A stretch of DNA of 25,349 bases from a virus: positions 1 to 25,349 of IMG/VR virus record IMGVR_UViG_3300044617_002013; one strand, 5' to 3'. The notes under the pieces are model-generated. The model worked only from the letters and a program-made list of their open reading frames with translations, had not been told where the DNA came from and made no database searches. The translations under genes and the position numbers were made by a program. Each line of letters begins with the position of its first letter. Position 1 is the first letter of the stretch. Shown one piece after another: positions 4,553 through 25,349 of this stretch.

Positions 4553-4936
4553 ATGTCTAAAATATCAAAAACATACGAGTTTTTTAATGAGCATGCAGTT
4601 TTTATAAATTCTGTCGATTTAAATCTCGATAAACAAACTAATGTTATAAATCTACAGTTTCACGCTGTGTTACCTGTTGCGTACACGTATAATTATTTGG
4701 ATAGAGTACGTTTAATCTTACAGCATTCAGATTTATACGATCGTATAACATTTTCTCCGTTACTTACCTCAAGAGTTTTTGTACCTTATGAGATAATGAT
4801 GCCAATACCTTCAAGTGAAATTTCTGACAGTGATCAAGATAATTTTTCGTATGATGAAGAGGTTGTAGCAGGTACTAACCCTGAAGATGAAACCGATTTC
4901 TCTATTTCATTCTTTAACGTTTTTAGATTCTTATGA
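4553..4936 (+). CDS. unknown 127-residue protein between gp13 and the giant adhesin
   Basis: This small acidic protein has an aromatic, beta-rich N-terminal part ([21 protein letters not shown]...) and a C-terminal acidic region (about 90-118, [17 protein letters not shown]) before a hydrophobic ending ([10 protein letters not shown]). It has no membrane segment and no family I recognise. It starts three bases after the gp13-like stop, and its TGA overlaps the next gene's ATG (ATGA at 4933-4936). That suggests coupled translation and perhaps a fixed ratio with the giant protein downstream. The position of T4 gp14 was considered, but length and sequence do not support it. An adaptor or chaperone for the downstream protein is possible but is only inferred from position. 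Confidence 0.7.
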
Positions 4937-7900
4937 GAGATCCATTACCCATACAAACTAGAGATCTCATAAAAAGAAATATAGAAGATTTTCCTATCTT
5001 TACACCGGAATGGTATTTTGATTCCGTTAATTGGTCACAAATTTTTTCAAATATACAACCATTTAACGAAGTAGATGTTTTTGAAACAGAGCTTGAACAT
5101 ATACAAACTGATGTCACTGAACCGAATTATTACACAGACACACCGTGGAAAATAAGAATAGGTAAAGGTGGTCAGCTTTATTCTTTAGTTGTACCTGAGT
5201 ATGGAGAGTTAATGCCTATACAGTATAAATCTCAGACAGCTCTTTCCCCTTGGGTCGAAGATTGTGTAAATATAATGCTATTTAGTCCGTCGACATATTT
5301 TATTGATTTAACTGCCAGGGTTTTTAATTTTGAAAGCAAGGTGTATGGATCTGGTATGAATTTAATACCCGGGTTGGACCCGTCGAATACAAAGCTATTT
5401 TACTCCCCTCAGTTATTTAAACAATATAATGCAGAAGAAAAAAGCTTTTCAATTGCAAATTTAGGCACAGTACCTACACCAAGTGTAAATCGTAGCGATG
5501 TTATTATTTACAACAAATATAGAGATATAGGAGCCGGGGCAATTGAGGTTACCCAATACGCTTACAATTTTGGTAATTCTGTCTACGAGCATATATTTTC
5601 CCCGCATTTAGCTTTACGCTCATCAAAGCTCGGTGTGCCAGTTGTAAGTAAAAGTAATAACACATATGAGTACTATACATCGAATGATGTTTTAACAGGC
5701 ACTAATTTTTTAATTTCAAATCAAGAATACGGTGGGTGGTTTACTTGGTCAAGTGAGGAAAAAAACCCTGCAGCTATGGGGGTCACGTTAGTTACAGGTG
5801 TAGATAAAGAGTGGGGGTATCAAAGTGGTTTAGAGATAAATTCGCCCCAGCGTTGGCAGGTAAGTGAAACAGTTTTAAGTTTTGGAAAATCTTTAAGCGG
5901 GTCATTACAAGACATTAGTTACTGTAATTTAGATACGCATGTAGCATTAGCTCCTGGAGAAGGATTTTACAATCGTTTTTATATTGTTATTGGGCCATTA
6001 TATAAAACTGCAGGTGTTTCAAACGCACTTGTTGAGTATGTAGAAACAGGTAAAAAAACTTTTACTAACACCCAAGTTGGTGGTGGAATGCCTCTATATA
6101 ACGTCTTTGAAAACGGGCAAAGAATATTAACAACACGAAAACCTGAAAATGTTTTAAATATAGAGCCTGTAGGAGCTTCTTTACCTGTACCTGTAAAAAA
6201 TTCTGTTCCTCTATTTCTTTTACGAAATAGATACACAGGTGGTTTTAAAGTAACCACTGATCCGTATTTGTTAGCAAGTAAAGTTCCGGTGCAGAACCCT
6301 TACCCTATAGATCATCAACATTATAATAAATTACAAGGTAAAGTTGTTTATAGACCGTATGATGAAACCACGACATGGGTAGAGTTTTTAGGTTATGCTG
6401 CGCCTTTAAATGTAAACGCGCTTTCTGGTAACTATCAAAGACTAACCGATGTATTACCCGTTAACATATTTGAGACTGGAGAAGGTGTAGCTGCTTCAGC
6501 TCTTATGATACAGAAACCTGTTTTGTTACCAAAAGGTTTAGAGATAAAACAAAAAGTTAACTGCACGGTTATTAACCCTGAGCGACCGTATTATTTTCTT
6601 GTTGATGAAAATATTGAAACATTTTGTTTAACAGTTGGTACAGTGAGCGGTGTAACATTTACAAACTTTTTTAATGCAACAAGTTTTAGCGCTTGTAAGC
6701 TCGAGCTTAGTTTAACCCCGTATATTTCAGCGCAACGTACAGAATTGTTTGTTACTCAAAACACGCAACTATCTACGATACAGAATGAAATATATACATT
6801 CTACTATTTCAACACTGGTCTTACCTTAGGGTTTTCGAAAGTAACAACCCCGCTATCAGTACCTATACTATCAGCACTAAAAGAAACTATATACGTAACA
6901 CCAACACCTACAAAAGCTCCGTCGACACCTTTACCCACATTAACACCAACAAGAACATCAACTCAAACACTAACACCAACTAACACACCAACCAATACCC
7001 CAACAGCAACTGTACAACCTACACCGACGAGGACACCAACGATTACACCGACTAGGACACCAACGATTACACCGACTCCAACGCGCGGCACATCAACTCC
7101 AACCCCAACAGTAACTCAAACACCAACACCAACAAACACCCCTGTAACACCGCAACCAACTCCAACAGTAACCCGTACACCAGTAACACCAACACCAACA
7201 CTATCCCCGACGCGCACGTCAACACCGACCCGTACACCGGTAACACCAACACCTTCCTTAACACCGACAAGAACACCAACTCTAACTCCAACACAAATAA
7301 ACGACACTTTGTTTTCGTTCACATATAATAATACACCTTTAACAGGGTATTTTTATATACCTCAAACATCAAGCACACTGGATGTTATACTAGCGTTGCA
7401 CGGTACTACTTTAAACGATACAGTTGCTTTAACTGCAGCAAAAACCATACTAACTAATATAAAAACCGGTATTGGGGTTACAGATATGGGTATTATGTCT
7501 ATAGCATACCCTCAAGAGAATATGCTATTTGGAAATAATATAGCGTATGCAGAAGCAGCATTACTATGGTTAAAAACTAACCCGGTGAATGTGTTTGGAG
7601 CTAATATTCGAAAAATATTTATTATAGGTCATTCCCAAGGTGGTTACCTAGCGACCCGTTTAAATAATCTACATCAAACAGACGGGGTTATTTCTAATGC
7701 ACCGGGCCCGATTAATCTAAATATTAGATGTCGTTCAGAAGAATCTGGAAGTCAACCATCAAGCCGGGAATGTCAATTACTTCATTTAGCATTTGGTAGT
7801 GCGTTTACATCTCCGCAACCTTACTATAATCGTTCTTTAATGAATTTTGTTGCGGAACAAAAATCTAAAACATTATTTGTGCAAGGTTTACTGGATACTG

Positions 7901-9081
7901 CATTTCAAATTGCAAGGTTTGAAGAGCTTGAAACCGCATTAGGTACTTGCACGACATGTGCGCCTTATGAAATTGTTAAAATAACAAACGGTACGCATAC
8001 ATCTGTATTCGATACATTAGAGGGTCAACTAGCTGCTCGGCGGTTTCTTTATACAGGTTCAGCGTTTCCAACACCCACACCAACTCAAACCCCTACCTTA
8101 ACACGTACTCCTACACTGACACCAACATTAAACACAAACAACGGAAATATACCAGAAAGTAATATACAACCCGGGGATGTTCGTTATGTGGTAATTAATC
8201 CGTGTCTTGCAACATTTATAACTGATAGCGAAATTGTTGACTTTTCGGGAAAAACTTGGTGTATGTTTAGAAAAATAGCCTGCATAGAAGGTACCATATT
8301 GGTAAACCCAGTCTTATTAGCAGGTTCAAATTTTTGTAACGCTCTTGCAATTGCAGCAGATAATCTCAACGTATTAAACACAGATACAAGTGTAGAGCTC
8401 TTCCGAGACGGGTACACTCGTCAAGGGGTAGTAAGGTACAATATACATTTAGAAAGAAAAGAAATTTGGTTTAGTACAGAGTGTAGTATATGTGAAGTAA
8501 CTCCAACCCCGACTCCAACTCAAACGACAACACCAGCTCCTACCCAAACTAACACCCCAACAGTAACACCAACAGTAACACCGACGCAAACTATAACACC
8601 ATCTGTAACCCCGACAAACACCCCTACGGTGACTATAACAAAAACTCCAAGAGCTACACCAACTAATACTCCCACCTCAACACCGACACCGACCGTTACT
8701 GTGACACAAACTTCAACTATAACCCCGACATTAACTCTAACACCAACGCGAACAAAAACAATGCCTGTAACTCCAACACCCTCTAAGACTAACTCCGGTA
8801 CATGTATACCATCAACAGGTAACTGGGTTATAAAAGCAGGAGAAAAAATAAAAATATGTGGTACTGTTAATCTTGCTGGTGCTGGTAGAAGAATCGATAT
8901 ATACGGCAACGTGTGGATAGATGGAGCAACATTAATTGCTACTGGAGGTATATTTGTTCACGGTACATTATATTTTGATGGTGGTACGGTAGGTGGGAGT
9001 GGAGGTCTTACGGTGTACGGAAAGATGTCATCTACAGATCCTACAGACCCTGCTAACTATAAATGTGCAACATTTTGTTAA
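4933..9081 (+). CDS. giant modular virion protein with embedded alpha/beta-hydrolase (esterase/depolymerase-like)
   Basis: This 1382-residue mosaic protein has these parts: residues 1-655, beta-rich, family not recognised; 656-788, Thr/Pro linker; 789-1045, an alpha/beta-hydrolase; about 1046-1070, a short Thr/Pro linker; 1071-1189, a Cys-containing domain of unknown type; 1190-1286, a third Thr/Pro linker; 1287-1382, a Gly-rich repeated beta-strand cap ([20 protein letters not shown] type) suggesting a small beta-helix. The hydrolase shows ILALHG (oxyanion-hole strand), the nucleophile elbow GHSQGG with Ser901, a likely acid Asp988 (GLLDTAFQ) and His1022 (NGTHTSVF), so the triad looks intact. 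The fold class resembles esterases and polyester or feruloyl-esterase-type enzymes; the substrate is unknown. It overlaps the preceding gene by four bases. A tail-fibre or head-decorating enzyme that acts on host surface polymer is the best inference. Confidence 0.8.
6898..7296 (+). repeat. Thr/Pro linker 1, with 24-bp tandem units
   Basis: About 133 codons are almost only Thr and Pro, with occasional Arg, Ile, Val, Gln and Asn ([16 protein letters not shown]). Two near-identical 24-bp units lie at 7021-7044 and 7045-7068, and a partial third follows. The linker separates the N-terminal 655 residues from the hydrolase and is expected to be extended and flexible. The reverse strand over this region is open only because of the biased composition. 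Confidence 0.85.
8500..8790 (+). repeat. Thr/Pro linker 3 (a shorter linker 2 lies at 8068-8140)
   Basis: About 97 codons of Thr/Pro-rich sequence ([18 protein letters not shown]) join the Cys-containing domain to the C-terminal Gly-rich cap. A 25-codon version (8068-8140) follows the hydrolase. The same two-residue rhythm recurs in the partial gene at 2-175, so these segments are shared building blocks of at least two phage proteins. Confidence 0.85.
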
Positions 9082-10100: not shown

Positions 10101-10940
10101 TTATTGCAGTTTCCCGACTACTCGAATTTTATTTGGTTCAGCAGGTTCTTTTACAGTGCTTGAATGTTCTTTTCTTGGAGTCGATAAATCACTCTTTAAG
10201 ACAGAGCCTCTTGTTGCAACGTTAAACGCTAACACTAATGACACCGCTAAAGGATCAAAAACACAAATTAATATACAAATAAATAAAATAACAACTTTAT
10301 CTAAAGGTTTATTAATAACATCTGCTACAAATTTAAAAGTACCAATATCTTTAACTTGATTAAATTGTTGCTTAAGTGCTATTATTTCAACATCTTTCTT
10401 TGTTTTTTCTTCCTGTATGATTTTGTTTCTTTCTATAATCTGTTGTAACTCTTGATTTGCTTTGTCTATAGCAGCATAAGCTTGCTCCCTTGGTAATCTA
10501 TAATTGCCTGCTTCTTGTACTCTTTGTTCTTGAGTAGCTCGAACTTGGTTTAACATTTCGACTCTTTTATTATTCTGTTCAAGTTCAGTATCAAAAGCAC
10601 TTTTTTGAGTCTCAAAAACTTGAATTTGAGCTTCGACTTGAGAAAACTTAAAACTATTAACCTGATAAGCAGCTGACAAATAACCGAATATACCAATAGA
10701 TGTTATTACCATTAATATTAAAACCGCGCTTATTAAATATGCCTTAAGCCACCAAATAGTCTGTCTCCAGTACCTATAAAGATAAGAAGTAGCAACAAGC
10801 TTACCAAACTCTAAAGCTCCAGCCATTACAACCACTTGATAAAAACTACCAGAAAATAATGTTGCGATACCAAGTACAGAAAAGTAAGCAGCTGAACCTG
10901 CAACAAGAAAAGCAGCTAAACCTAATATAAATGTAAACAT
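10101..10940 (-). CDS. membrane protein with central coiled coil
   Basis: This 279-residue protein is on the opposite strand to the head genes. It has hydrophobic segments at about 4-28, 34-52 and 63-90, a long polar heptad-like coiled coil at about 92-195 (Gln/Glu/Lys-rich, for example QELQQIIERNKIIQEEKTKK), then a fourth hydrophobic segment at about 217-243 with the motif CVFDPLAVSLVLAFN, and a basic tail. Marine T4-like phages carry coil-containing membrane proteins with a similar FDPLAV signature; the role is not known to me. Placement in the host inner membrane is expected. It could be a membrane-anchored assembly factor, as T4 gp40 is for the portal, but only its position beside the prohead genes suggests this. 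It is read from its own octamer promoter, divergent from the protease gene. Confidence 0.8.
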   Translation of the reverse strand: MFTFILGLAAFLVAGSAAYFSVLGIATLFSGSFYQVVVMAGALEFGKLVATSYLYRYWRQTIWWLKAYLISAVLILMVITSIGIFGYLSAAYQVNSFKFSQVEAQIQVFETQKSAFDTELEQNNKRVEMLNQVRATQEQRVQEAGNYRLPREQAYAAIDKANQELQQIIERNKIIQEEKTKKDVEIIALKQQFNQVKDIGTFKFVADVINKPLDKVVILFICILICVFDPLAVSLVLAFNVATRGSVLKSDLSTPRKEHSSTVKEPAEPNKIRVVGKLQ

Positions 10941-12929: not shown

Positions 12930-14399
12930 ATGGAAAAAAATACACTTCTACACATCGATAAAACGAGTGCTGAAGCTTTGATTGAAAAGTGGGCGCCAGT
13001 ATTGGATTACACATCCGAGAAAGTTGCACCTATCTCTAACGATCACACACGCTTAAGCACTGCGATTCTATTGGAAAACCAGGAAAAATGGTGTTTTGAA
13101 GCTGAAAACGTTGCTGGGCAATCCGGTTCCGTGTTCGGTGGAAACGCATATAAAGCAAATCCTGGCACAATGCCTAACGGAGATACATATGCCCAGGGCG
13201 ACGCTCGTCTCCCTAAGGTTCTTATCCCGATGATTCGTCGTACATTCCCCGAACTCATCACAAATGAGATCGTCGGTGTACAGCCCATGACAGGTCCTGT
13301 TGGTTTAGCTTTCGCTCTTCGTTATAGATACGAAGATACCGCTCTCGGTTACAGCACCAGAGGCGATGGTCAGCCTGGTATGCTAGGTCAAGCTAGTGGT
13401 AGTCAGGTTAACTCTACAGGTAGAGAAATCGGTTACAACTACTTAAACACTGCGTTTACAGGTGCTTCCAGTGCCGCTCTCAGTGGTCTTCCAGGTGAGT
13501 TTGAACTCGCTCTTGAAGACGGTGGTGTTGCTGCTCTTATCAGTCAGTTCGAATTAACCTCTAAGATCCCTCAACTCACAATCGAATTCAGTAAAACAGC
13601 TGTTGAAGCCGGTACACGCCGTCTCGCTGCTAAGTGGTCGGTTGAGCTCGAGCAAGATCTTCGTAACATGAACGGTATTGATGTTGACTCTGAATTAACA
13701 AACGCTATGTCGTATGAAATTCAGGCCGAAATCGACCGTGAAATGATTGCTCGTATGCTTCAGACCTGCTTAAACGCTGGTAAAGGCACAGGTTACTCGA
13801 TCTGGGACGCCACATCCGCCGATGGTCGCTGGTCTGGTGAGCGCGCCCGTGACTTCTACAATAGAGTTATTGTTGAAGCCAATCGCGTCGCTGTTCGCAA
13901 CCGTCGTGGTGCTGCTAACTTCATCATCGCTACACCTCGTATCTGCGCGATTTTCGAATCGCTTCCTAACTTCTCTTGGATGCCTGTTGCCGGTAACGTC
14001 AATACAGCACCTACTGGCATTGCCAAAGTTGGCTCTGTTGGTGGCCGCTTCCAGATCTACCGTGATACACGCACAGAGGCTCAGAACATTGGTGGAGCAG
14101 GATACACCGGGTATACTGGTGCAAATTCTGGTAATGGCGCTCGCGTACCTCAACTCGATTACGCGTTGCTCGGTTACAAAGGCACTGAGTATTATGACAC
14201 AGGTATTGTTTACTGCCCATACATCCCTGTTATGGTTCAGAGAACAATTGCTCCTAATGACTTCTCGCCACGTGTTGGTCTCTTGACCCGCTATGGTGTT
14301 GTTGATCACATTTTTGGAGCTAACCTTTACTATCACCTCTTGATTTGTAAGGGTCTTGGTACCTCGTTCATGCCTGGCCAAGCCGCTGTTTATCTCTAA
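12930..14399 (+). CDS. 23: major capsid protein (gp23-like)
   Basis: This is the main shell protein, assembled around the scaffold as hexamers and trimmed at its N-terminus by the gp21 protease. The 489-residue product fits the family (T4 gp23 is 521). Recognisable blocks are the N-terminal ALIEKWAPVLDY and STAILLENQEKW (about 16-54), the LPKVLIPMIRRTFPELITNEIVGVQPMTGPVGLAFALRYRY core (about 92-130), the Glu-rich ELEQDLRNMNGIDVDSELTNAMSYEI segment, RRGAANFIIATPRICA, and a C-terminus with YHLLICKGLG. The exact cleavage site cannot be fixed by eye; acidic sites near residues 49-60 are candidates. The gene is visibly richer in C-ending codons (CTC, CGC, ATC, AAC) than its neighbours, as expected for the most highly expressed gene. 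A strong terminator follows 21 bases after the stop. Confidence 0.97.
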   Translation: MEKNTLLHIDKTSAEALIEKWAPVLDYTSEKVAPISNDHTRLSTAILLENQEKWCFEAENVAGQSGSVFGGNAYKANPGTMPNGDTYAQGDARLPKVLIPMIRRTFPELITNEIVGVQPMTGPVGLAFALRYRYEDTALGYSTRGDGQPGMLGQASGSQVNSTGREIGYNYLNTAFTGASSAALSGLPGEFELALEDGGVAALISQFELTSKIPQLTIEFSKTAVEAGTRRLAAKWSVELEQDLRNMNGIDVDSELTNAMSYEIQAEIDREMIARMLQTCLNAGKGTGYSIWDATSADGRWSGERARDFYNRVIVEANRVAVRNRRGAANFIIATPRICAIFESLPNFSWMPVAGNVNTAPTGIAKVGSVGGRFQIYRDTRTEAQNIGGAGYTGYTGANSGNGARVPQLDYALLGYKGTEYYDTGIVYCPYIPVMVQRTIAPNDFSPRVGLLTRYGVVDHIFGANLYYHLLICKGLGTSFMPGQAAVYL

Positions 14400-14463: not shown

Positions 14464-14994
14464 TTAGAACCAGCTAGGTTTCGGTCTTATAGACCAAGTA
14501 GCAAACGGTTTATCATGTCTAATATAAGCTTGGTATTGTTCTGGTACTGAAAGTAAATTAAAGTTAGATAACTGTCGACAGACGCTATCTTGATTAATGG
14601 CGATCGTAAAAGGCGTCAGATTCGTTTTTGTGTGAATTGTGTTGTTTTTATTTTGTAAGCACCACTTAATGAACGTTATAGTAAAATGCTCTGGGGAACC
14701 TGGCCATCTGTAATTTCTTTCATTGAACATCTCTAATGCGTGTTCCACAAGCCATAAAAAATTATCGTGAGATTCTTTAACCCATAATGTACATTGATGT
14801 TTTGCGTACCCTTTACCGGATTTTCTAATTTTATTAGTTTTAGTTCGCGGGCAAGAAGGATGCGAAAGTTGTTCATTTGTAAAACAATTTTGTAGCATTA
14901 TAGCTGATTCAATCATCATTTTAGACCTACAGTGTTGATCACAAAGTTCTTTTGCTGCTACAATAGGGTCTTCGTTAGTTACAAAAATATTCAT
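14464..14994 (-). CDS. conserved-type phage protein of unknown function (176 residues)
   Basis: This soluble protein opens MNIFVTNEDPIVAAKELCDQHCRSKMMIESAIML. The 'DP..AA..L.D.H..KM..E...ML' opening, a mid-section with HQCTLWVKESHDNFLWLVEH and an ending with VPEQYQAYIRHDKPFATW...PSWF match a family I recall from many phages as hypothetical. I know no established activity. Conserved His and Cys (His21, Cys22, His67, Cys69, His76) suggest metal binding or catalysis, but this is inference. It lies alone on the minus strand between capsid and fibre genes, ending 7 bases from the bidirectional terminator. It has no octamer promoter; a TATAAT-like hexamer (minus strand, 15014-15019) about 20 bases before its start could be a host-type -10, which would fit early or middle expression. 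Confidence 0.8.
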   Translation of the reverse strand: MNIFVTNEDPIVAAKELCDQHCRSKMMIESAIMLQNCFTNEQLSHPSCPRTKTNKIRKSGKGYAKHQCTLWVKESHDNFLWLVEHALEMFNERNYRWPGSPEHFTITFIKWCLQNKNNTIHTKTNLTPFTIAINQDSVCRQLSNFNLLSVPEQYQAYIRHDKPFATWSIRPKPSWF

Positions 14995-15069: not shown

Positions 15070-18000
15070 ATGGAAACACCCTGTAGTAGACCGATACAGA
15101 ATATAGCTGAAAATGATTTCTTAGGTAATTCGTTACGTAAAATAAACGATAATTTTCAAATTTTACAGTTAAATGTTTGTCAATTAGAGCATGTTATAAA
15201 AGGATTAAACCGTCAATTAGATGAACTCGGTATACCAGAAGACCCTCGTTGCGGTAAAAAAGAAGAATGGGAAACATGCCCGGAATTAGAGCGTGTTGTC
15301 AATCCCCCGGACCCGGAAACCTGTTTACAGGATTCGAGAATACCTTTAATTAATAGTTTTATAAACTTAAAAAACCTTGGATGTAGCTTATACACCACAA
15401 TTGAAAAACTTTCAAGCGTTGTAATGCGTAATGCTGCTGGTAAAGAAACAACTCAAGCCGGGCCCTTTGAACCAACTGGGTGCACCCATACAGATGGTAT
15501 TAGCCCAGATGAATATATTGGAGATTCATATGACAAGATTCGTAGTAATTTGTTACGATTACGAGATGAATATTGTCGGTTATCTAATATTACAAACAAT
15601 TTAGAAAAACGTATTACATGTCCAAAACCACCGCCAAGACGACAAAGATTATTAAATCGTTTTACCATGCAAGGAGAGGGTGGTTATGCGTGGAATACAT
15701 ATAATTTTGTTAACCGAGATAAAATTTACGCTACCCCTGAATATAGTGTAGGTATACAGGCAAATATGGGAGGCGCTGTAGAATACAACAAATATAAGTA
15801 TACAACAACATACGATGGTACTACCTATTATGGTTTAAGTGGCGCTATTCGTGTTTCTCTAGCCGCTAATAATAATTCAGTAATACTCCGTAACGGGTTA
15901 GTGTACTATAGCGGTAACGGGCCGTATATGAGTAATTGGATCAAGAATAATGCAAGCATAATGTGGGATATGTTTATGCCTTCTACCCACGGTAACGGCG
16001 GACCGACCCAGGTTGTTTTACTTACAACTGGTAATCTTTTTTTTGTTGATTTAAGAAATTTTGCTACAAATCCTAATTTCGTACCACCTATTATATTACC
16101 AAATATAGAAAGATTTTTAGCTATAAACCAGTCGCATAATTCAGATTTACTTGTTTTATCGAAAGATAAAAAAGTCTATCATGTTGTAACTCATAGTACG
16201 GGTGGTAGCCCGTCCCCGTATGCGTATCAAGAAATTACAAATATTGGAGATACTGATGATATAGAGTTTATGTCTATAGGAGATGGTGCAAATAGTTGCT
16301 ACGTTTGCTATAGTTCTGATTTAAAAAAAGTATACCCTATTAATTGTAGTAACCCTAATCGAGATGGTCACGGTTCTAATTCATTTGGCTGGTTTACGAG
16401 TAAAAACAATACCGCAAGCAATATTTTTTTAGATAACGATGAATATTTTGTTGATGCTTGTGGTAATGAGTTTGATGTTGTTTTTTTAACCAATAAGAGA
16501 GTGTTGTGTTATAGTACTATAGATAATGAATACGATAGATGTGGGATAACATATTGGCAACACCCATTGCCTTCAGGCTCAAAAGCCGTTCGTATGTCTA
16601 CATCTTGCTCGTATTCAATGGCTGTTGAGCTTTCAGATGGATATTATTTGCTTTCAAGAAGACCGATAACACAATATGCAACTGGGGATAGCGCTGGGGT
16701 GGCATGTATTGGTTTTCCGACATATCAATATTTTGCGAAGTTTGAAATATGGAATACTTTGCAGCGAAATCTTTCAGCTACAAGGCCTGATATATTTGGC
16801 TTCGGGGACGATGCTAAAAACACAGTAGGGGAATGTTCATGCGATGACCCTCCACCACCGGAACCTCCACCAGACTGCGTACCGAGACGTTGGGATTTAT
16901 TAGACCGGTTTGCTATGCAAGGTGAAGGAGGTTATGAAAACTGGACGTATAATTTTGTTGATAGAGATGTTATTTACGGTAGTCAATTATACAAAGATCA
17001 TTCATTTACAAGTGTTTTAGGTAGTGGTAGTAACTTAACTACATATTATTATACTACCTCTCTTGGTGGAAAGACGTGGCACGCATTAAAAAATGCTATT
17101 AGAATTTGTGACGGTAATTACAATCAATCTGGTATATTTAGAGACGGTAACGCGTATGTTAACGGGGATAAGTATCCTCATCCTTGGATTTTAAGCACAT
17201 ATAAAGAATGGATTGATCTCTTTATGCCGTCTTCTTATGAAAATGTTACCCAGGGTCACATCACACAAGGGGTTTTAACAAGAGACGGTAAGTTGCGTGC
17301 AATACTTTTAAACTTAACTACAACTAATTTCCCGGCAAAAGCCAGCTGGTTAGTGTCCGGGCCACCAGTTATACAAGGAGAAACTGATACAGGCGCTGTT
17401 GTTGAACTAAACAACATTGACCGGTTTTTAACAATAAATCAATCTCATAATGGAGATATTTTTGTAGCAGGTAAAGATAACCGGGTGTGGCATGTCGGTT
17501 TTTGTAGAGGGGCTCGAACCGCAGATCCGTTTCGAGGGGCGTATGCTAAACAAATAAAAAATTTAGAAGCTAATCAAATAAAATGTATATGCATCGGGGA
17601 CCCATCTAGATCAGCATATGTAGTTTATAGATCTAATCCGTCTGTATTATTTGAAATAGACTGCAGTAACCCAGGGAGAGATTTAAGTAATTGGGGCTGG
17701 TTTACTGAAAGAAATCTTACACCAATATGCTCTGGGCCAGGGCAGCCATTAAATCTACGTGGGGCTACTTATAACAATTTTTTAGAAACCGGGGAGTTTT
17801 TTGTAGATATGTGTGCAAATGAATTTCATTGGGTTTTTCTTACTAATAAAAATGTACATTGTTTTCGAGGTCAATCTTCAGTATCAGGTTATAAAAAATT
17901 CCCTATACCGCCAAGCGTGAGCGCGGTAAGAATGTGTACATCAACATCGTACTCAATGGCGGTAGAGTTATCAGACGGGTATTATTTAGCTGCTTACACA

Positions 18001-18621
18001 ACAGCAGCTGCTTTTGAATCAGCCACTGATTTAGGTAGCTCTACAGGGTATGGAGCTCCATATCAATATGTACAAAGAGTGCCTTCCTGGACAATGCTTG
18101 CTCAAGTGCTCTCTTCAGGAAGACCGGATGTTGTACCATTTGGCACAACATGTGATCAAGATCCGACGTGGAATTGCTTAAAAACATTCGTAGAAGATGC
18201 CCAGGTAATGACGTTTGGAAAATCTAAAGATGTTATCTTGCAATCAAATACATTTTATGCTTTATCTGCATATCAAGAGGGTGGCGCGTTTATGGACGGA
18301 GGCGGGGTCGGTTTTACAGGGTCAGCTATAGTTACTTTTAGACATCCGGGGTACCCTGCGGTACCTGATGTTGTTTTTAGACACGATTCAACACCAACAC
18401 CTGGTTTTGATGATGCTGTTATTTACTGGTCTACTGCTGCTGGTACAGTAAGTATATACAGTAACCATCCCGGGGCATTAATAAGAACTGAACCGTTACC
18501 TTGGAAAGAACGAAACGACATATTCGTCTCTCATACGTTTATCGACGGAGTGTACCGTTCGGTTATTGCAAAACAATATCAAGACGCTGAACAATGGGTG
18601 TGTTTTTTCCCGACTGAATAG
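15070..18621 (+). CDS. large fibre/adhesin-like protein with two RCC1-like propeller repeats
   Basis: This 1183-residue protein begins with NDFLGNSLRKINDNFQILQLNV (about 15-36), a helix pattern common at the N-terminus of fibre proteins in marine T4-like phages and likely the virion-attachment end. Residues about 190-575 and 606-1022 are two copies of one large domain, each opening RR..LL.RF.MQGEGGY...TYNFV.RD and closing with a W.....LS..RPD motif. Within each copy, strand patterns such as FLAINQSHN, YVCYSS and YSMAVELSDGYYL recur, which resembles RCC1-type beta-propellers. The copies are joined by a Pro-rich, Cys-bounded linker (CDDPPPPEPPPDC). Residues 1023-1183 are a different beta-rich cap with no family I recognise. 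A receptor-binding or side-fibre role is inferred. It has no membrane segment. Confidence 0.75.
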   Translation: METPCSRPIQNIAENDFLGNSLRKINDNFQILQLNVCQLEHVIKGLNRQLDELGIPEDPRCGKKEEWETCPELERVVNPPDPETCLQDSRIPLINSFINLKNLGCSLYTTIEKLSSVVMRNAAGKETTQAGPFEPTGCTHTDGISPDEYIGDSYDKIRSNLLRLRDEYCRLSNITNNLEKRITCPKPPPRRQRLLNRFTMQGEGGYAWNTYNFVNRDKIYATPEYSVGIQANMGGAVEYNKYKYTTTYDGTTYYGLSGAIRVSLAANNNSVILRNGLVYYSGNGPYMSNWIKNNASIMWDMFMPSTHGNGGPTQVVLLTTGNLFFVDLRNFATNPNFVPPIILPNIERFLAINQSHNSDLLVLSKDKKVYHVVTHSTGGSPSPYAYQEITNIGDTDDIEFMSIGDGANSCYVCYSSDLKKVYPINCSNPNRDGHGSNSFGWFTSKNNTASNIFLDNDEYFVDACGNEFDVVFLTNKRVLCYSTIDNEYDRCGITYWQHPLPSGSKAVRMSTSCSYSMAVELSDGYYLLSRRPITQYATGDSAGVACIGFPTYQYFAKFEIWNTLQRNLSATRPDIFGFGDDAKNTVGECSCDDPPPPEPPPDCVPRRWDLLDRFAMQGEGGYENWTYNFVDRDVIYGSQLYKDHSFTSVLGSGSNLTTYYYTTSLGGKTWHALKNAIRICDGNYNQSGIFRDGNAYVNGDKYPHPWILSTYKEWIDLFMPSSYENVTQGHITQGVLTRDGKLRAILLNLTTTNFPAKASWLVSGPPVIQGETDTGAVVELNNIDRFLTINQSHNGDIFVAGKDNRVWHVGFCRGARTADPFRGAYAKQIKNLEANQIKCICIGDPSRSAYVVYRSNPSVLFEIDCSNPGRDLSNWGWFTERNLTPICSGPGQPLNLRGATYNNFLETGEFFVDMCANEFHWVFLTNKNVHCFRGQSSVSGYKKFPIPPSVSAVRMCTSTSYSMAVELSDGYYLAAYTTAAAFESATDLGSSTGYGAPYQYVQRVPSWTMLAQVLSSGRPDVVPFGTTCDQDPTWNCLKTFVEDAQVMTFGKSKDVILQSNTFYALSAYQEGGAFMDGGGVGFTGSAIVTFRHPGYPAVPDVVFRHDSTPTPGFDDAVIYWSTAAGTVSIYSNHPGALIRTEPLPWKERNDIFVSHTFIDGVYRSVIAKQYQDAEQWVCFFPTE
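15637..16800 (+). repeat. propeller-type domain copy 1
   Basis: This is the first of three homologous domains of roughly 390-445 residues (the others at about 16885-18140 and 20545-21880). It opens RRQRLLNRFTMQGEGGY and ends near LSATRPDIFGF. The copies are diverged at DNA level but keep the same order of motifs, so the duplication is not recent. Confidence 0.75.
16885..18140 (+). repeat. propeller-type domain copy 2
   Basis: This opens RRWDLLDRFAMQGEGGY and ends near LSSGRPDVVPF. It shares with copy 1 the motifs FLTINQSHNGDI, SAYVVYRSN, FVDMCANEFHWVFLTNK and the STSYSMAVELSDGYYL strand pair. Confidence 0.75.
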
Positions 18622-18647
18622 ATTTAACAACAATAAAAATATAATTA

Positions 18648-18655
18648 TATAAATA
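18648..18655 (+). promoter_or_regulatory. perfect late-promoter octamer (TATAAATA) abutting the next ATG
   Basis: This is an exact 8 of 8 match to the T4 late consensus, but it ends only one base before the ATG at 18657. T4 spacing would start transcription inside the coding region, so either the spacing differs, the gene is read from further upstream, or the match has another role. Confidence 0.4.
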
Positions 18656-18656
18656 T

Positions 18657-20441
18657 ATGGCTACAAGCAAAACATTAAGAGAATTTACGGCATCAACAAC
18701 CCCACCAGCGGATACAGATTTTATAGTTGGTTACTCACAACCAGTATATGGCGGGGAAAGAAGGTGGACGCTTGCACAAATAAAAACAGCGGTAGGGTCT
18801 GATCAAGGAGGAGATGATAATAAAGCAGATCCGTTAATACCGGATGTAGAAAACGGGTTTATAAAATTCTTAGCTAAACATGCTCCTTCAAGTTACGCTT
18901 GTGCTGCTGTAACTTCTACAAACCGTGTCATTGTGTGGGGCCGAGCCAACGGGTATAATGGCGGTGCTGGAGGTCAGCTTGCCCCATCTTTCGTATCAAG
19001 CTCTCAAATTGAACCGATGCAATATGCAAGGGTACCGTTTTATTCAAATTGGGATCGAAACGCAGGTGCTGATGGGGTAGATTATTTAGATGAGAATCCA
19101 AACGTACAAATCGTTGATTTATACTGGACGGTTAGAGTCGGGTTTGCACTCTTAAGTGATGGTACCGCTTGGGTTACAGGTTACAATGAAGGAGATATAG
19201 GTCTTGGTACAGCTCCAACAACAGGTAACGGGTATAAACCAACGTGTGGTTTTGTAAAACTAAACTTTTCCGGAGCTTCAATTAAAAAAATACAATGTGG
19301 TTCAGATAACAACGATACAAGCCGTACGTCGTTATTTGCGGCTCTCGATACAACTGATACACTTTGGATGTGGGGAGAAACAAAAGATGCTGTTTTTGGA
19401 AAAGGTACAGCAGTTCAAATATTAAATACTCCAAGTAAAATAACTAGTCAAACAATTGTTTTAGATAAAACAGGTAGTACCGGGGCATTTAATTTTGAAG
19501 GTCAGGTGCTTGATTTTTCAATAAACAGCGTCGATACAAACACTACAGCAATCGGTATTGTAACTAAAAACGGGCAATTATTTTTTGGTGGGGATAATTC
19601 ACAAAGACAGAGAGGTGCAGGAGGTGCAAACGCTACAACTACTATGCTTTATTGGAACCGGGCTTATAAATACACTATAGCTGGCGGGGAGTCTTTAGTT
19701 GTAGACGCTGTAACAGTCAGTCGGAGTGTGTTTGGTGGGGCGTTTAATCATTACTATGTTGATACCGGGGGGTCAGTTTGGGCGTGCGGGCAAAATAGTT
19801 TTGGGCAGTTAGGTAACGGTACAACTACGAACCCTACAGCATCTCCACCAAAAGGGTTTTTTACGTTAGTACAAATACCAGCAGGGTATAAAGCCGTAAC
19901 GACTAAACCAGCTGTTTTTCATAATAGCTACTGGCACCCGGTTCTTTATGCATTATGTGTTGACACTACTACTAATAAAAATGTACTTTTTAGCTGGGGG
20001 TGTAACCGTAGTGTGGGTTACTGTGGAGTTGACTCAACAGCTTCTCTTATTACCGTGCCCACTATTTGTAAGTTTAGAAATTCAAGCGGTGTTAAAGTAC
20101 CTTTAACAAATTTAAAAGATGTGTATATAAGTGATAACTTTGGATCCGATGGGGATAGTCAGAGTTATGGAAGTGTTTGGGTAGTCGATAATGATGGTTA
20201 CGCATACACCGCAGGGTATAGAAATTACAATGAACCACCGTTATATGATGCTCACAGTAGACAGTATTTTATAAGATTACCATTCAAAAACATTAAAGAT
20301 ATTGTTTTAAGTGGTAACGTTACAGGGCATCAATGGTCAATTTTTTTAGTAAAAAACGGGGCTGTATACGGTATAGGTAATGTTGCTTATAAATTATTCG
20401 GATCTGCAGATGTCGCAAAACACCCAATAAGATTACTTTAA
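18657..20441 (+). CDS. RCC1-repeat fibre/adhesin-like protein
   Basis: This 594-residue protein begins MATSKTLREFTASTTPPADTDFIVGY...ERRWTLAQI, a phage fibre-type N-terminus seen in marine T4-like phages. From about residue 80 to the end it is a propeller of RCC1-like blades: VIVWGRANGYNGGAGGQ, FALLSDGTAWVTGYNEG, LWMWGETKD, the textbook blade VWACGQNSFGQLGNGTT (about 374-391), VLFSWGCNRSVGYCG and AYTAGYRNYNE. RCC1 propellers are known as protein-binding rings in eukaryotes and occur in some bacterial surface proteins; a receptor-binding role here is inferred. The next in-frame Met is about 120 residues on, so ATG 18657 is the likely start. The stop lies inside a perfect palindrome. Confidence 0.8.
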   Translation: MATSKTLREFTASTTPPADTDFIVGYSQPVYGGERRWTLAQIKTAVGSDQGGDDNKADPLIPDVENGFIKFLAKHAPSSYACAAVTSTNRVIVWGRANGYNGGAGGQLAPSFVSSSQIEPMQYARVPFYSNWDRNAGADGVDYLDENPNVQIVDLYWTVRVGFALLSDGTAWVTGYNEGDIGLGTAPTTGNGYKPTCGFVKLNFSGASIKKIQCGSDNNDTSRTSLFAALDTTDTLWMWGETKDAVFGKGTAVQILNTPSKITSQTIVLDKTGSTGAFNFEGQVLDFSINSVDTNTTAIGIVTKNGQLFFGGDNSQRQRGAGGANATTTMLYWNRAYKYTIAGGESLVVDAVTVSRSVFGGAFNHYYVDTGGSVWACGQNSFGQLGNGTTTNPTASPPKGFFTLVQIPAGYKAVTTKPAVFHNSYWHPVLYALCVDTTTNKNVLFSWGCNRSVGYCGVDSTASLITVPTICKFRNSSGVKVPLTNLKDVYISDNFGSDGDSQSYGSVWVVDNDGYAYTAGYRNYNEPPLYDAHSRQYFIRLPFKNIKDIVLSGNVTGHQWSIFLVKNGAVYGIGNVAYKLFGSADVAKHPIRLL

Positions 20442-20452
20442 AGTAATCTTAT
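20427..20452. promoter_or_regulatory. perfect 13-bp palindrome across a stop codon
   Basis: Bases 20427-20439 are the exact reverse complement of 20440-20452, with no spacer. The centre lies in the TAA stop of the RCC1-type gene and the right end touches the TATAAATA at 20450. It is A/T-rich and has no T-run after it, so it is a poor intrinsic terminator. A DNA-binding site or an mRNA hairpin that protects the 3' end are alternatives. Confidence 0.6.
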
Positions 20453-20457
20453 AAATA
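20450..20457 (+). promoter_or_regulatory. perfect T4-type late promoter octamer (TATAAATA)
   Basis: This 8 of 8 match lies 15 bases before the ATG at 20473. T4 spacing predicts a leader of about ten bases. Its first bases are shared with the palindrome at 20427-20452. Confidence 0.65.
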
Positions 20458-20472
20458 TTATATATACAGGGT

Positions 20473-23463
20473 ATGCGCGTTACAAAAATACACCCAATAA
20501 AGCAAGGTTTTTTTCAAGAATCTAACATCCCTGTAGCTCCTGATCGAAGACAAAGCCTTTTAAATAGATTTACAATACAGGGTGAAGGTGGTTACGGGTG
20601 GAACACTTTTAACTTTGTCGATAGAGATAAAGTATACGCCCCTTCAGTCTATGCAACCGCTAATTATACAAACATATTAGGCGGTTACCCAACCGGTCCC
20701 TCGTATACTACATACGCATATACAACGAGTTTTGATGGTACAACATACATTGGGTTAAGTGGTATTTTACGTATGGGAGCAGGTAATTATAACTCAGGCG
20801 CAATTTTCAGAGATGGTAATGTTTTTTATACCCAATATACCCCTCAACCTAATCAAAGTGTATTAAACGAAGGCTCTAGAGGACCGTTTTTTTATCAATG
20901 GGTAAAAGATAATATGGGTAAATTTAAAGATTTATTCATGCCATCATCATATTATCATACAAGATGTCAAGCAGTATTACTATCTACTGGAGATCTATAT
21001 GAATTAGATCTTGATGATCGACCAACAACACCGGCTTTAATTCTCAATAATGTTGATAGATTTTTAGCTATCAACCAGGCCCATAATTCCGATTTTATTG
21101 TCGCAAAAACAGATAACACGGTTTGGCATGTAGCGTTTAAAGGTAACTTAATAAATACCCCGACAAATCAATCTGAAGCACGGCAAATACCCGGGTTAAA
21201 TGCGAGCGATATTGCATTTATACAAATAGGAGATCCATGGAACTCTCTTTATGTTTGTTATAAAAACGATAATACAAAAATTTATCGTTTAATAACCGAT
21301 ATGACTGGTGTGCTGAGATCTTTAGGAAAATTTCAATGGATAACCGGGGTATCTCCTACCCCTATGAACACAGCTCCTTTTGACTGGTTTGGTATTCAAT
21401 CAGGAGAAAGCTTAACTACACCAGCTGTTGGTCCATCTGGAGCAGTTTACGGTAAACATAAACCTCTTAACGGGTTTACACCATTTAATTTACTCGAGAC
21501 AGGAGAATACTTTGTTGACGGGCAAAGTAATGAATTTCATTTTACCTTTTTAACAAATAAATACGTACATACGTTTAGAGGTTATGGTACTGAACACTAC
21601 GGGTACGCAAATGGTTTAGCTTATAAAAAATTTGCGTTACCAGCAAATACAGAACCGGTACGTATGTCAACATCAACGTCATACTCTATGGCGTTAGAGC
21701 TTTCAGATGGTTATTATCTATTAAGTCATAGCGGGTATTCAAATTATCTTGGCGGGCCTATTGCTCCAGGTGGTATGTCTCCTCTTTATTACGATCCTTA
21801 TCAGTTATTTGAAAAGTTTACAATTTGGGACACTCTAGTACGAAATCTTTCGAGCGGTAGACCAGATATATATGGATTAAATAGTAACACTAAAACAATT
21901 CGTCCAGGGTTAACCGCTACTACTACATTTAACGGAGATGAATTAAATGGTATAGAAGATATAAACGGAAAAAACGTAATCATATTACCGCAAAAAACAC
22001 CAAAACTTTTTGAAGGTTTTTGGTATATGGAGCTTTTTGATAACCCGACGGACATATACAGACCGTCACCTATAACTGATAATTGCGTTGAAGCATATGG
22101 ATTACCATGGCGATGGTCTGCAATTACCGATGCAATAACTCCACTTGATAGAGTGTATCTTAATAGACCGAAAAAATGGTCTCAAGTTGAGTGTGGAGAT
22201 CCTTTTGAAAAACGATGGCTAAGGCAAGAGAGACTACAACCTGCTCCTCCTCTACCAAAAGCAAATACCATTTGTAAAAAAGATAAAGTTATATGGACTA
22301 TATCCACTCGAAATTGGTCTGTAACTTCAGTAGTAGGGGAAAGTGTAACAGATTTTCCCTACACATTAATGTATTCAACCGACGGTAAAACACCGTACAC
22401 AGTTTCAGAAAAAACACAAACCGATATTAAGATATCTGCATGCCAAAATTTAATTTGTGAACAAGTATTAAACACCTTAACACTGTATACAGATCAAACA
22501 TCAATGTTTCTTGTGCACAAAGATATTGTGCGTGCTGTAGAAGATTATATAAAACCTTTAATTGTGCGGTACTTCACGTCAAATGGGTACCATGTATTAG
22601 CGAAAAATATAAAAAATGTCGTTACTGTAAAACCTATTGTAAATAAAAGATATTTAAAAACTCTATCTGATGCTGGAGTACCAGTGCTTTCAAGCGGAGG
22701 TAATACAAATATTTCAATGGTGTTTATAGATACACCGACAGCTTATTTAACAAATTGTGTAAACGGGACAAAAACTAATGATTTTAAATTAGATATTACT
22801 CAGTATAGAGATATTCTCTCTAAAACAACGACAAGAGAATCTTATAAATTTACAATATTTTCTGTTACATCTGGAGAAAATATTGATATTTGCCCGTCCG
22901 CTACAATACAACTATCTGGTATTAGCGTAAGCAATCACCCTGACTACTCACTACCCCATAATCTCTCTGATATGGATGTTGAGCAGCGCTATCGGTTTAA
23001 TATACCATATAAAGACGGTAGTAATTTACCTGGTCGAGTAAACTCTCAAGCGAGCGTCGAATATTACAAAAATTTAATTATAGAAGAATTAAAAGAGCAT
23101 GGAATCGATCTACAAACGCTAACATCAACAAAAACAATTTATACTTTCTGTGACTCTGTTACCGCTACTGTACTACCTCCCCCTGTATTAAAGCTGTATA
23201 CACCTAACCGCTTTGTACCTATTAATGAGCCTGTAAAATTTGAAAACTTATTAACAAACCCAGAAACTCTAGAATCGATTACGGTAGATTTTGGAGATAA
23301 TATTATAAAAACATACACAGGAGAAGATATGTTAAAAGATTTTTTTGTAGTGTATAGTATTAACGGTTATAAAACATTAAGTATTACTATTACAACACAA
23401 AATAAATCAAAAGTGGTATTAACATACCCTAATATAGTGAATGTTGTTTCGTACTATGACTAG
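20473..23463 (+). CDS. large fibre-like protein: propeller domain plus PKD-like C-terminus
   Basis: This 996-residue protein has three parts. Residues about 25-470 are a third copy of the propeller-type domain of the 15070 protein (RRQSLLNRFTIQGEGGYGWNTFNFVDRD ... LSSGRPDIYGL). Residues about 480-900 are an unfamiliar region with a Pro-rich break (LQPAPPLPK) and a Cys-containing segment. Residues about 905-990 resemble a PKD-type Ig-like fold: PINEPVKFENLL, ITVDFGDN and YSINGYKTLSITI, which is the usual 'DFGDG...Y...G.Y.V.L.V' pattern. PKD domains are common in extracellular binding proteins. The short N-terminus (1-24) lacks the fibre-type helix of the other genes. Start ATG 20473 follows an exact octamer. 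The stop overlaps the next gene by eight bases. Confidence 0.75.
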   Translation: MRVTKIHPIKQGFFQESNIPVAPDRRQSLLNRFTIQGEGGYGWNTFNFVDRDKVYAPSVYATANYTNILGGYPTGPSYTTYAYTTSFDGTTYIGLSGILRMGAGNYNSGAIFRDGNVFYTQYTPQPNQSVLNEGSRGPFFYQWVKDNMGKFKDLFMPSSYYHTRCQAVLLSTGDLYELDLDDRPTTPALILNNVDRFLAINQAHNSDFIVAKTDNTVWHVAFKGNLINTPTNQSEARQIPGLNASDIAFIQIGDPWNSLYVCYKNDNTKIYRLITDMTGVLRSLGKFQWITGVSPTPMNTAPFDWFGIQSGESLTTPAVGPSGAVYGKHKPLNGFTPFNLLETGEYFVDGQSNEFHFTFLTNKYVHTFRGYGTEHYGYANGLAYKKFALPANTEPVRMSTSTSYSMALELSDGYYLLSHSGYSNYLGGPIAPGGMSPLYYDPYQLFEKFTIWDTLVRNLSSGRPDIYGLNSNTKTIRPGLTATTTFNGDELNGIEDINGKNVIILPQKTPKLFEGFWYMELFDNPTDIYRPSPITDNCVEAYGLPWRWSAITDAITPLDRVYLNRPKKWSQVECGDPFEKRWLRQERLQPAPPLPKANTICKKDKVIWTISTRNWSVTSVVGESVTDFPYTLMYSTDGKTPYTVSEKTQTDIKISACQNLICEQVLNTLTLYTDQTSMFLVHKDIVRAVEDYIKPLIVRYFTSNGYHVLAKNIKNVVTVKPIVNKRYLKTLSDAGVPVLSSGGNTNISMVFIDTPTAYLTNCVNGTKTNDFKLDITQYRDILSKTTTRESYKFTIFSVTSGENIDICPSATIQLSGISVSNHPDYSLPHNLSDMDVEQRYRFNIPYKDGSNLPGRVNSQASVEYYKNLIIEELKEHGIDLQTLTSTKTIYTFCDSVTATVLPPPVLKLYTPNRFVPINEPVKFENLLTNPETLESITVDFGDNIIKTYTGEDMLKDFFVVYSINGYKTLSITITTQNKSKVVLTYPNIVNVVSYYD
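20545..21880 (+). repeat. propeller-type domain copy 3
   Basis: This is the homologue of the two domains in the 15070-18621 gene, here at the N-terminus of a different protein. It shares the opening RR.SLLNRF.IQGEGGY, FLAINQAHNSDFIV, SLYVCYKND, FVDGQSNEFHFTFLTNK and STSYSMALELSDGYYLL, with the W....RNLSSGRPDI closing motif. Confidence 0.75.
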
Positions 23464-25349
23464 TAATTTTATAAATGTCGAAAAATGCGTACCGGTTGAT
23501 CAAAAAAAAGCGGTAATATGTACGCCATCAGGTTTTATTGTACCTAATGAAATAGTATTAGCAGATAATATTAATAATGCTTTTTTAAAATTACAGCAGG
23601 CGATACAGCATTTTGAAGATTCGAGCTGTATATTAGAAGATTATATAGAGTATTACGGTTGGTTAGGAGTATTACCGAATTCTTTGTTCTCAGAAGAAGC
23701 CTTAGCAAATAACTGTAATGTTATAAAGTGGCAAGATATTGAAGAAGGATGTTTAAGTGTACCTCCTACGGGTGTAACATGGGAAGATTTAGAGTGTAGA
23801 GTCGGAGAAAATATTGATTGCAAGACTTATGTAGAAAATTGGTGTGCTCGCACTAACTGTTTCGGTAAGTATTGTATGGATTGGAGTTGGAAAAAACTCA
23901 CAACATCCCAATCTGAATTACCTATAACTTGGAGACGTACAAAAGAGGGAGAATCCCATGCAAAAGTTTGGGAGTTTGAAGAGTGTGATAACGATAACAG
24001 CGTCGGTTGTAATGAAGGTAATTGGAATGTAAATATACCATATATAGATGAATACTATGACCCACTTAAAGCATGTACAAACGAAAAAAGATGCATTTAT
24101 ACAGGTGTAGCGTCTAGAGAAAATATAATTTATGCAACACGTTCTACTTCGGTTTGTGTATTATCTTCAGATTACGAATCAACGCTTATAGGAGCACGAC
24201 ACACTTTGGATAGTTCTATAGGGTTTAAAGATCTTTGTGGTATTGCAATTGATAGTAAAAATAACTTCTTTGTTATAGATCGAGTTTTATGCCGAGTGGC
24301 GGTGTATAGTTATAAAAAGAATACTACTGAACCCTGGACATTAGAAAATATATGGGGTGAACCGGGGCCGCGAGCAATAAACAACAGATTTTTTAGACCT
24401 AATGATATACACATCGATAAACATGATACCGTTTGGGTACCCGATACCGGTAATAACTGTGTAAAGCAATATACAAATACAGGTAATTGGATTCAAACAT
24501 TATTTGATAATGAGTTTTTAAAAAGACCGCCTCTAAGTGTTGGTGTTGATGAAGCTGACAAAGTACACATACTTGTTGAAAATGCTATTAGAGTTTACAG
24601 TTATGAAGGTAGTTTTTTATTTGAGTATAGTATTGATGTAACCTCTCCGCCAAAAAAAATTAATACAAATTATAATAGACAAATTATATATGTGACCTAC
24701 GAAACATGTGTTAAAAAATATACGAGGGTAGGTTTACCGTTTAAAAATCTTTTTGAAGATAATCGATTTTGTGGTACCGGTGTTGGTGGTATATATCAAG
24801 ATGAATACAGAAACGTTTTAGTTTTATACGGGGATAAAATTTTAAAGTTTGTACATATTTTAAAACAAAAAAATACAAAAAGTATTATGACAGAAAGTTT
24901 TTGGAATACGGTTTCAAAAATTTTTATTGATAGGGATGAATATGTACAAGATTGGGTTTATAATAAAGCTTTTCAGCGTATGTGGGATGCAATAGAAGCG
25001 TTCAGATCAAGTTTATTTTATGATACTACGTACTGTAAAGGTTACAGACCACCAATATTTCAAAAACATGAAGTCTGTATAGGTCAAAATGAACCAGTAA
25101 CTTCTATAGTTATAAATAGATGTTTAGAAAATTTATGGGCAAATCTGTGTAGTGTGGTTTCCTACTACGACCCTGAATGTAAAGAACCCGTACCAATGAC
25201 CCAAATTTGTGAATCTCCAACTATAGAATGGAATACTCAAGTATACCCTGTACCTGCAAACCTTGGAGCTGAAGATATATGGTCTGTTACATCAGATAAC
25301 CTTAAAGCTACTTTTAGGATGGGAGATACATGTGGTGGAAACCGTACTG
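23456..25349 (+). CDS. NHL-repeat virion protein (partial, runs off the window)
   Basis: The frame opens at ATG 23456, overlapping the previous gene by eight bases, and stays open to the edge (about 631 codons). The N-terminal region has NAFLKLQQAIQHFEDSSCILEDYI, a helix like those at fibre N-termini, then a Cys-rich, Trp-rich stretch (about 85-200). Residues about 255-400 contain NHL-type propeller blades: LCGIAIDSKNNFFVIDR, FRPNDIHIDKHDTVWVPDTGNN and LSVGVDEADKVHILVEN. Later the sequence contains MWDAIEAFRSSLFYD and CSVVSYYDPEC; the preceding protein ends in NVVSYYD. The C-terminus is missing. A late virion or adhesion component, translated in coupling with the preceding gene, is the best inference. 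Confidence 0.8.
   Translation, partial: MTSNFINVEKCVPVDQKKAVICTPSGFIVPNEIVLADNINNAFLKLQQAIQHFEDSSCILEDYIEYYGWLGVLPNSLFSEEALANNCNVIKWQDIEEGCLSVPPTGVTWEDLECRVGENIDCKTYVENWCARTNCFGKYCMDWSWKKLTTSQSELPITWRRTKEGESHAKVWEFEECDNDNSVGCNEGNWNVNIPYIDEYYDPLKACTNEKRCIYTGVASRENIIYATRSTSVCVLSSDYESTLIGARHTLDSSIGFKDLCGIAIDSKNNFFVIDRVLCRVAVYSYKKNTTEPWTLENIWGEPGPRAINNRFFRPNDIHIDKHDTVWVPDTGNNCVKQYTNTGNWIQTLFDNEFLKRPPLSVGVDEADKVHILVENAIRVYSYEGSFLFEYSIDVTSPPKKINTNYNRQIIYVTYETCVKKYTRVGLPFKNLFEDNRFCGTGVGGIYQDEYRNVLVLYGDKILKFVHILKQKNTKSIMTESFWNTVSKIFIDRDEYVQDWVYNKAFQRMWDAIEAFRSSLFYDTTYCKGYRPPIFQKHEVCIGQNEPVTSIVINRCLENLWANLCSVVSYYDPECKEPVPMTQICESPTIEWNTQVYPVPANLGAEDIWSVTSDNLKATFRMGDTCGGNRT

Follow-up and report, generated by a model that had tools for sequence, protein, structure and literature searches.

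Propellers of the RCC1 type are already known from phage particles. RCC1 proteins have been detected by mass spectrometry in the virions of phages W70 (PMC11370258) and GAP32 (PMC5259590), and phAPEC6 encodes eleven RCC1 copies (PMC7247149). The role suspected for these proteins is the organisation or packaging of DNA (PMC7247149 for phAPEC6; PMC11370258 for W70), which the phAPEC6 paper words as a suggestion based on the role of RCC1 in eukaryotes (PMC7247149), and PHROGs places the RCC1 proteins of phrog_4219 under DNA metabolism. In the part of the literature that was searched, no proposal was found that RCC1 forms the tip of a fibre.

In several phages, RCC1 is found with fibre genes. S-SRM01 (Kyanoviridae) has three RCC1 genes after the annotated long tail fibre distal subunit, over ~8 kb, and in G009, G027 and BUCT-ZZ01 the RCC1 gene comes after a fibre gene and a tail-fibre chaperone. 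In the Pseudomonas phages PollyC and SeaP1-3, a T7-type fibre ends in RCC1. The N-terminus of this fibre matches PF03906 with E-values of ~1e-4 to 6e-5, under the curated cut-off, and its residues 1-330 are common to the fibre of Andromeda and residues 1-300 to that of SeaD1; neither of these two fibres has a Pfam RCC1 match. Separately, the RCC1 region of S-SRM01 (L102) contains annotated TPR and sulfotransferase genes, and TPR-type and sulfotransferase-like genes were seen by eye after the RCC1 gene of G009 (L125, 4800-7322); this is perhaps a recurring neighbourhood.

We analysed a 25-kb virus fragment, the whole of which (25,349 nucleotides) is called the window here. It carries four genes, p1 to p4, with three copies of a ~400-aa domain (the QGEGGY domain), one RCC1 gene (p2) and one gene for an NHL-repeat protein (p4). 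RCC1 propellers are common to this locus and the Vequintavirinae/Rak2-like phages (W70_237-239, GAP32 Gp1, phAPEC6; phrog_4219), in several copies in W70 and phAPEC6, and p2 matches phrog_4219 at 5e-15. The QGEGGY domain has not been reported from those phages, and the RCC1 genes of W70, with their suspected role in DNA packaging, are numbered away from its fibre genes. S-SRM01 and BUCT-ZZ01 resemble the window in being T4-like phages whose RCC1 genes adjoin baseplate and fibre genes; they differ in having canonical RCC1 only, p4 had no match in them at the sensitivity used, and the search of phage records gave no QGEGGY domain. In PollyC (Pseudomonas Autographiviridae) and Ppr_SeaP1-4, the RCC1 propeller is, as proposed for the window, the outer part of a fibre; its head also occurs on fibres without RCC1, but is T7-type and the repeats are classic RCC1. 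The first-pass annotation had regarded a propeller-based apparatus as unfamiliar among T4-like fibres; this novelty is not supported, given the three RCC1 genes of S-SRM01 after its long-tail-fibre gene and the RCC1 proteins in the virions of other myophages (PMC11370258, PMC5259590).

Window, virus and gene order

The window contains a T4-like head module (portal, neck, head closure, gp21, gp22 and gp23, assigned with PHROGs), and the presence of gp20-gp21-gp22-gp23 identifies the virus as T4-like. Its gp23 was 76% identical to the best match of the IMG/VR scan and 81% identical to that of the sister contig L142, while identity to the best cultured phages was only ~32%; within that collection, the clade thus lacks a close cultured member. 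Following gp23 are one reverse-strand gene and then p1, p2, p3 and p4 (Table 1), and all four of these adjacent genes are open where the first-pass annotation had placed them. A T4-like late-promoter motif, TATAAATA, lies directly upstream of p2 and p3 (18648-18655 and 20450-20457); T4-type late promoters of this sequence were not enriched in the window (4 observed vs 4.7 expected by chance).

Table 1. Coordinates of the main features in the window.
Feature	Position	Strand	Description
gp23	12930..14399	+	Major capsid protein; phrog_138 1e-83; puts the phage in an uncultured T4-like clade
p1	15070..18621	+	1183 aa; N-terminal anchor, d1 and d2, C-terminal domain of ~140 aa without an assigned family
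Anchor motif 1 of p1	15115..15189	+	FLGNSLRKINDNFQILQLNVCQL; common to genes just after gp23 in L003 and L142
Anchor motif 2 of p1	15514..15585	+	YIGDSYDKIRSNLLRL; motif scan; phmmer E 0.001 to L003_8403
d1	15640..16812	+	Domain copy in p1; BLASTP and alignment
d2	16888..18150	+	Domain copy in p1; BLASTP and alignment
p2	18657..20441	+	594 aa; short N-terminal head, RCC1 propeller at ~residues 70-594; Pfam, phrog_4219, PDB profile
p3	20473..23463	+	996 aa; d3 joined to a ~520-aa part that sister L142 encodes in a gene of its own
d3	20548..21888	+	Domain copy in p3; nearest to the sister's single copy (59% identity)
p4	23456..25348	+	NHL-propeller protein, open at the window end; full length in L142 is 727 aa
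NHL propeller of p4	24104..24853	+	Six-bladed; AlphaFold, Foldseek

Three further genes in and around the head module were recorded. The gene between gp23 and p1 (14464-14994, reverse strand) has a similar gene in L142 at 6867-7397, and its function was not found. Between the head-closure and protease genes lies a reverse-strand gene (10101-10940) whose product, judged by eye, has hydrophobic segments and probably a coiled coil; similar proteins are encoded at the equivalent place in L003 and L142. Between the neck and head-closure genes, 4933-9081 encodes a 1382-aa protein in which long Thr-Pro repeats flank an alpha/beta-hydrolase domain with a GHSQGG motif (Pfam BD-FAE 7e-5, just under the cut-off); it may be a virion esterase with the host surface as its target.

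The N-terminal anchor of p1 was compared with proteins of the relatives. Its first motif matched L003_9499 (phmmer E 3.5e-5), and the anchor motif scan gave 0 matches in 1338 reversed ORFs. The same anchor starts small proteins after gp23 in L003 and after the p4 counterpart in L142, and is visible by eye in the cluster of a third contig, L137. The anchor of p1 is thus shared with proteins of its type encoded nearby in relatives, and these would presumably be located on the virion.

The repeated domain, its fold and the RCC1 gene

The ~400-aa domain is present in two copies in p1, where a Pro/Cys linker joins d1 and d2, and in one copy in p3. Compared in pairs by BLASTP (database size fixed at 100,000), the copies were 38% identical over 430-470 columns with E-values of 1e-76 to 1e-91, and the opening QGEGGY...NFV.RD and closing RPD motifs were invariant across d1, d2 and d3 together with many other columns. 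The three homologous domains with conserved end motifs that had been noticed in the first-pass annotation were thus confirmed, with limits within a few bases of those given there. None of the three copies had a match in Pfam or PHROGs or a credible PDB match by sequence, and the domain had no match in phage or plasmid records. Scans of viral and bacterial contigs with the three-copy alignment and its pieces also gave no matches. Two further viral contigs with the domain, L137 and L142, were recovered only with patterns from other stretches of the domain (A4, then A5); the range of the family is therefore probably underestimated.

The label "RCC1-like", given to d1-d3 in the first-pass annotation, found no backing at the sequence level: no RCC1 repeats were detected in them by Pfam, profile comparison or PDB sequence search, and the comparison of domain and RCC1 profiles was negative even with one added member. 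The label draws its support from a low-confidence structural model. An AlphaFold model of d3 built from three sequences was mainly beta (pLDDT 55, pTM 0.63), and its 13 best Foldseek matches in PDB were all RCC1-like domains, those of RPGR, Prp20, UVR8, RCC2, HERC2 and WBSCR16. The TM-scores of these matches were ~0.3-0.4, for a model with a pLDDT of 55. In BFVD, the leading named matches were mostly RCC1 proteins of phages and giant viruses. A poor model could produce such a resemblance by artefact, the domain being some unrelated all-beta fold, and the low model confidence and the lack of a sequence match to RCC1 would agree with this. We consider it quite unlikely, as the best matches were RCC1-like, and not WD40 or Kelch, in two independent libraries (PDB and BFVD), and blade-like strands of the pattern "hydrophobic - D/NGxVY" appear several times in the domain sequence. 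Judging from the model, the ~400-aa domain is likely a divergent RCC1-like propeller.

For p2, the RCC1 blades proposed in the first-pass annotation were recovered by Pfam. RCC1_2 (4e-9; 36.3 bits against a cut-off of 22) and RCC1 (8e-5; 23.6 bits against 21.7) both exceeded their thresholds, placing p2 among the RCC1 repeat proteins; WD40_RLD matched residues 153-469 at 1e-25 with 91 bits, under its 150-bit cut-off. Eight blade-like repeat cores were counted by eye, where an RCC1 ring has about seven blades. The head of p2 had no significant match to known fibre heads in a comparison with a profile of such heads. Three relatives have a common head of ~40-67 residues followed by RCC1, by an unrelated ~1000-residue tail or by only ~80 residues; the heads that bear RCC1 and the unrelated tail are 61% identical over 67 aa.

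The NHL protein and the modules of the relatives

The start of p4 is most likely that of Table 1, to judge from its agreement with the start of the sister protein. The best PDB sequence matches of p4 were the Pizza designs (E 3e-11 for Pizza6). The AlphaFold model has six blades with a pLDDT near or above 90 across most of the core, and Foldseek gave NHL domains as the best matches (TRIM71 NHL, TM 0.76 by target). Pfam NHL scored 13.8 bits, under its cut-off of 20; NHL repeats together with the six-bladed ring make p4 an NHL propeller protein, as the first-pass annotation had read from its blades.

At least 14 further records from the clade contain homologues of p4, including relatives without an RCC1 match, and the helical tail after the propeller is conserved among them. 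Some are ~1900-2200 aa in size and lie beside baseplate-type genes; others are near the neck gene, which the NHL gene closely precedes in L048, L131 and L132. This distribution makes the protein look structural, and it is probably a conserved structural component. The four genes would therefore probably not form one receptor-binding apparatus. NHL repeats have also been reported in the tail fibre of the Nitratiruptor phages NrS-2 and NrS-3 (PMC9723563), a phage tail protein with NHL repeats as in p4. That fibre belongs to siphophages and varies in repeat number, whereas the NHL protein of p4 type has been conserved as a component in much of the clade.

The sister contig L142 has the same order after gp23 as the window, but its p1 counterpart consists of the anchor and a single domain, the C-terminal half of p3 is a gene of its own, followed by a complete p4 counterpart, and no RCC1 match was found within the 57.7-kb record. 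Two domain copies and the RCC1 gene were thus gained or lost as modules. The single copy of L142 was 59% identical to d3 and 47% to d1. In the simplest reading, d1, d2 and the RCC1 gene were inserted between the anchor and the old domain, joining d3 to the next gene; the alternative is a loss of modules in L142. The tree of the five domain copies had supports too weak to choose between gain and loss. The idea that d1 was the original copy was dropped, since the L142 copy is nearest to d3 and the tree supports are weak. Inserted around the fibre module of L142, a homing-endonuclease-like gene (5270-6823, reverse strand) and a TnpB/OrfB-like transposase-type gene (13061-14320, reverse strand) were seen by eye, which are possible movers of modules.

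L137 is a fragment without a gp23 match, in which the domain ends a 1343-aa protein, behind PA14/GLEYA (2e-14 and 7e-18). The neighbouring genes code for proteins with legume-lectin (7e-17), tail-collar (4e-10) and RCC1 (7e-16) matches.

Proposed function

On balance, we favour the view that the window genes are the outer-fibre (adhesin) module of an uncultured T4-like phage, in which the propellers bind the receptor and are swapped as cassettes while the NHL protein is structural. In this proposal, p1 would be fixed on the virion through its N-terminal GDSLxxINxNF-type anchor and would display two RCC1-like propellers, and p2 and the d3 end of p3 would contribute two more. These propellers may serve to bind structures on the host surface, perhaps glycans, as receptors. 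Their duplication and swapping as cassettes would account for the single domain and no RCC1 in the sister against three copies and one RCC1 gene in the window. The NHL propeller of p4 would be a structural part, inherited vertically, with the task of joining or positioning the other proteins. Both RCC1 and the QGEGGY domain behave like outer modules that can be exchanged, in keeping with receptor binding; from the comparisons made here, binding of a receptor by the window propellers is likely, and the propeller proteins are most likely on the virus exterior, gripping the host. Independent backing for RCC1 as a fibre tip comes from the T7-type fibres of the cultured Pseudomonas phages and from the T4-like phages with RCC1 after fibre and chaperone genes. 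Against the proposal speak the low-confidence model of d3, its negative profile comparison with RCC1, the p2 head that resembled no known fibre head significantly, and the RCC1 genes of W70, numbered well away from its fibre genes. Of the propeller-based receptor-binding apparatus suggested in the first-pass annotation, the fibre-type module, the anchor of p1 and the exchangeable modules speak for receptor binding, while the idea of a single apparatus of all four genes is not supported.

The same gene positions would also suit proteins that decorate the outside of the head or tail or form whiskers there, such as head fibres or structural spacers, and not receptor-binding tips. In both the window and L142, the first forward-strand gene to follow gp23 is p1 or its counterpart, which may thus be a head fibre; anchored small proteins follow gp23 in L003 too, and in three relatives the neck gene comes shortly after the NHL gene. 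In other relatives, however, the NHL protein is encoded by baseplate-type genes, RCC1 comes after fibre genes, and the swapping of modules suits host recognition better than structure. We regard pure decoration as rather unlikely, and since head fibres may bind hosts themselves, the decoration and receptor-binding readings overlap.

The RCC1-type proteins could instead organise DNA inside the capsid, in line with the family name (regulator of chromosome condensation), the published suggestions for phAPEC6 (PMC7247149) and W70 (PMC11370258), the occurrence of RCC1 in W70 and GAP32 virions and the PHROGs class. This appears very unlikely in view of the fusion of RCC1 to T7-type fibre heads in cultured phages, the position of RCC1 genes after fibre and chaperone genes, the clustering of RCC1 with lectin, PA14 and collar genes in L137, and the eukaryotic basis of the published suggestion.

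The adhesin proposal for the window may extend to phage RCC1 proteins as a class. It is conceivable, if tentative, that they are exchangeable receptor-binding tips and not DNA-packaging proteins, with the QGEGGY domain as a second branch that shares no recognisable sequence similarity with them and is spread in fibre modules through duplication and fusion. The QGEGGY family has no name yet and escapes the annotation libraries that we used. Many phages encode RCC1 proteins, and the fibre fusions, chaperone neighbours and gain or loss of modules point to the exterior of the particle as their location, a question that is testable with the cultured Pseudomonas phages.
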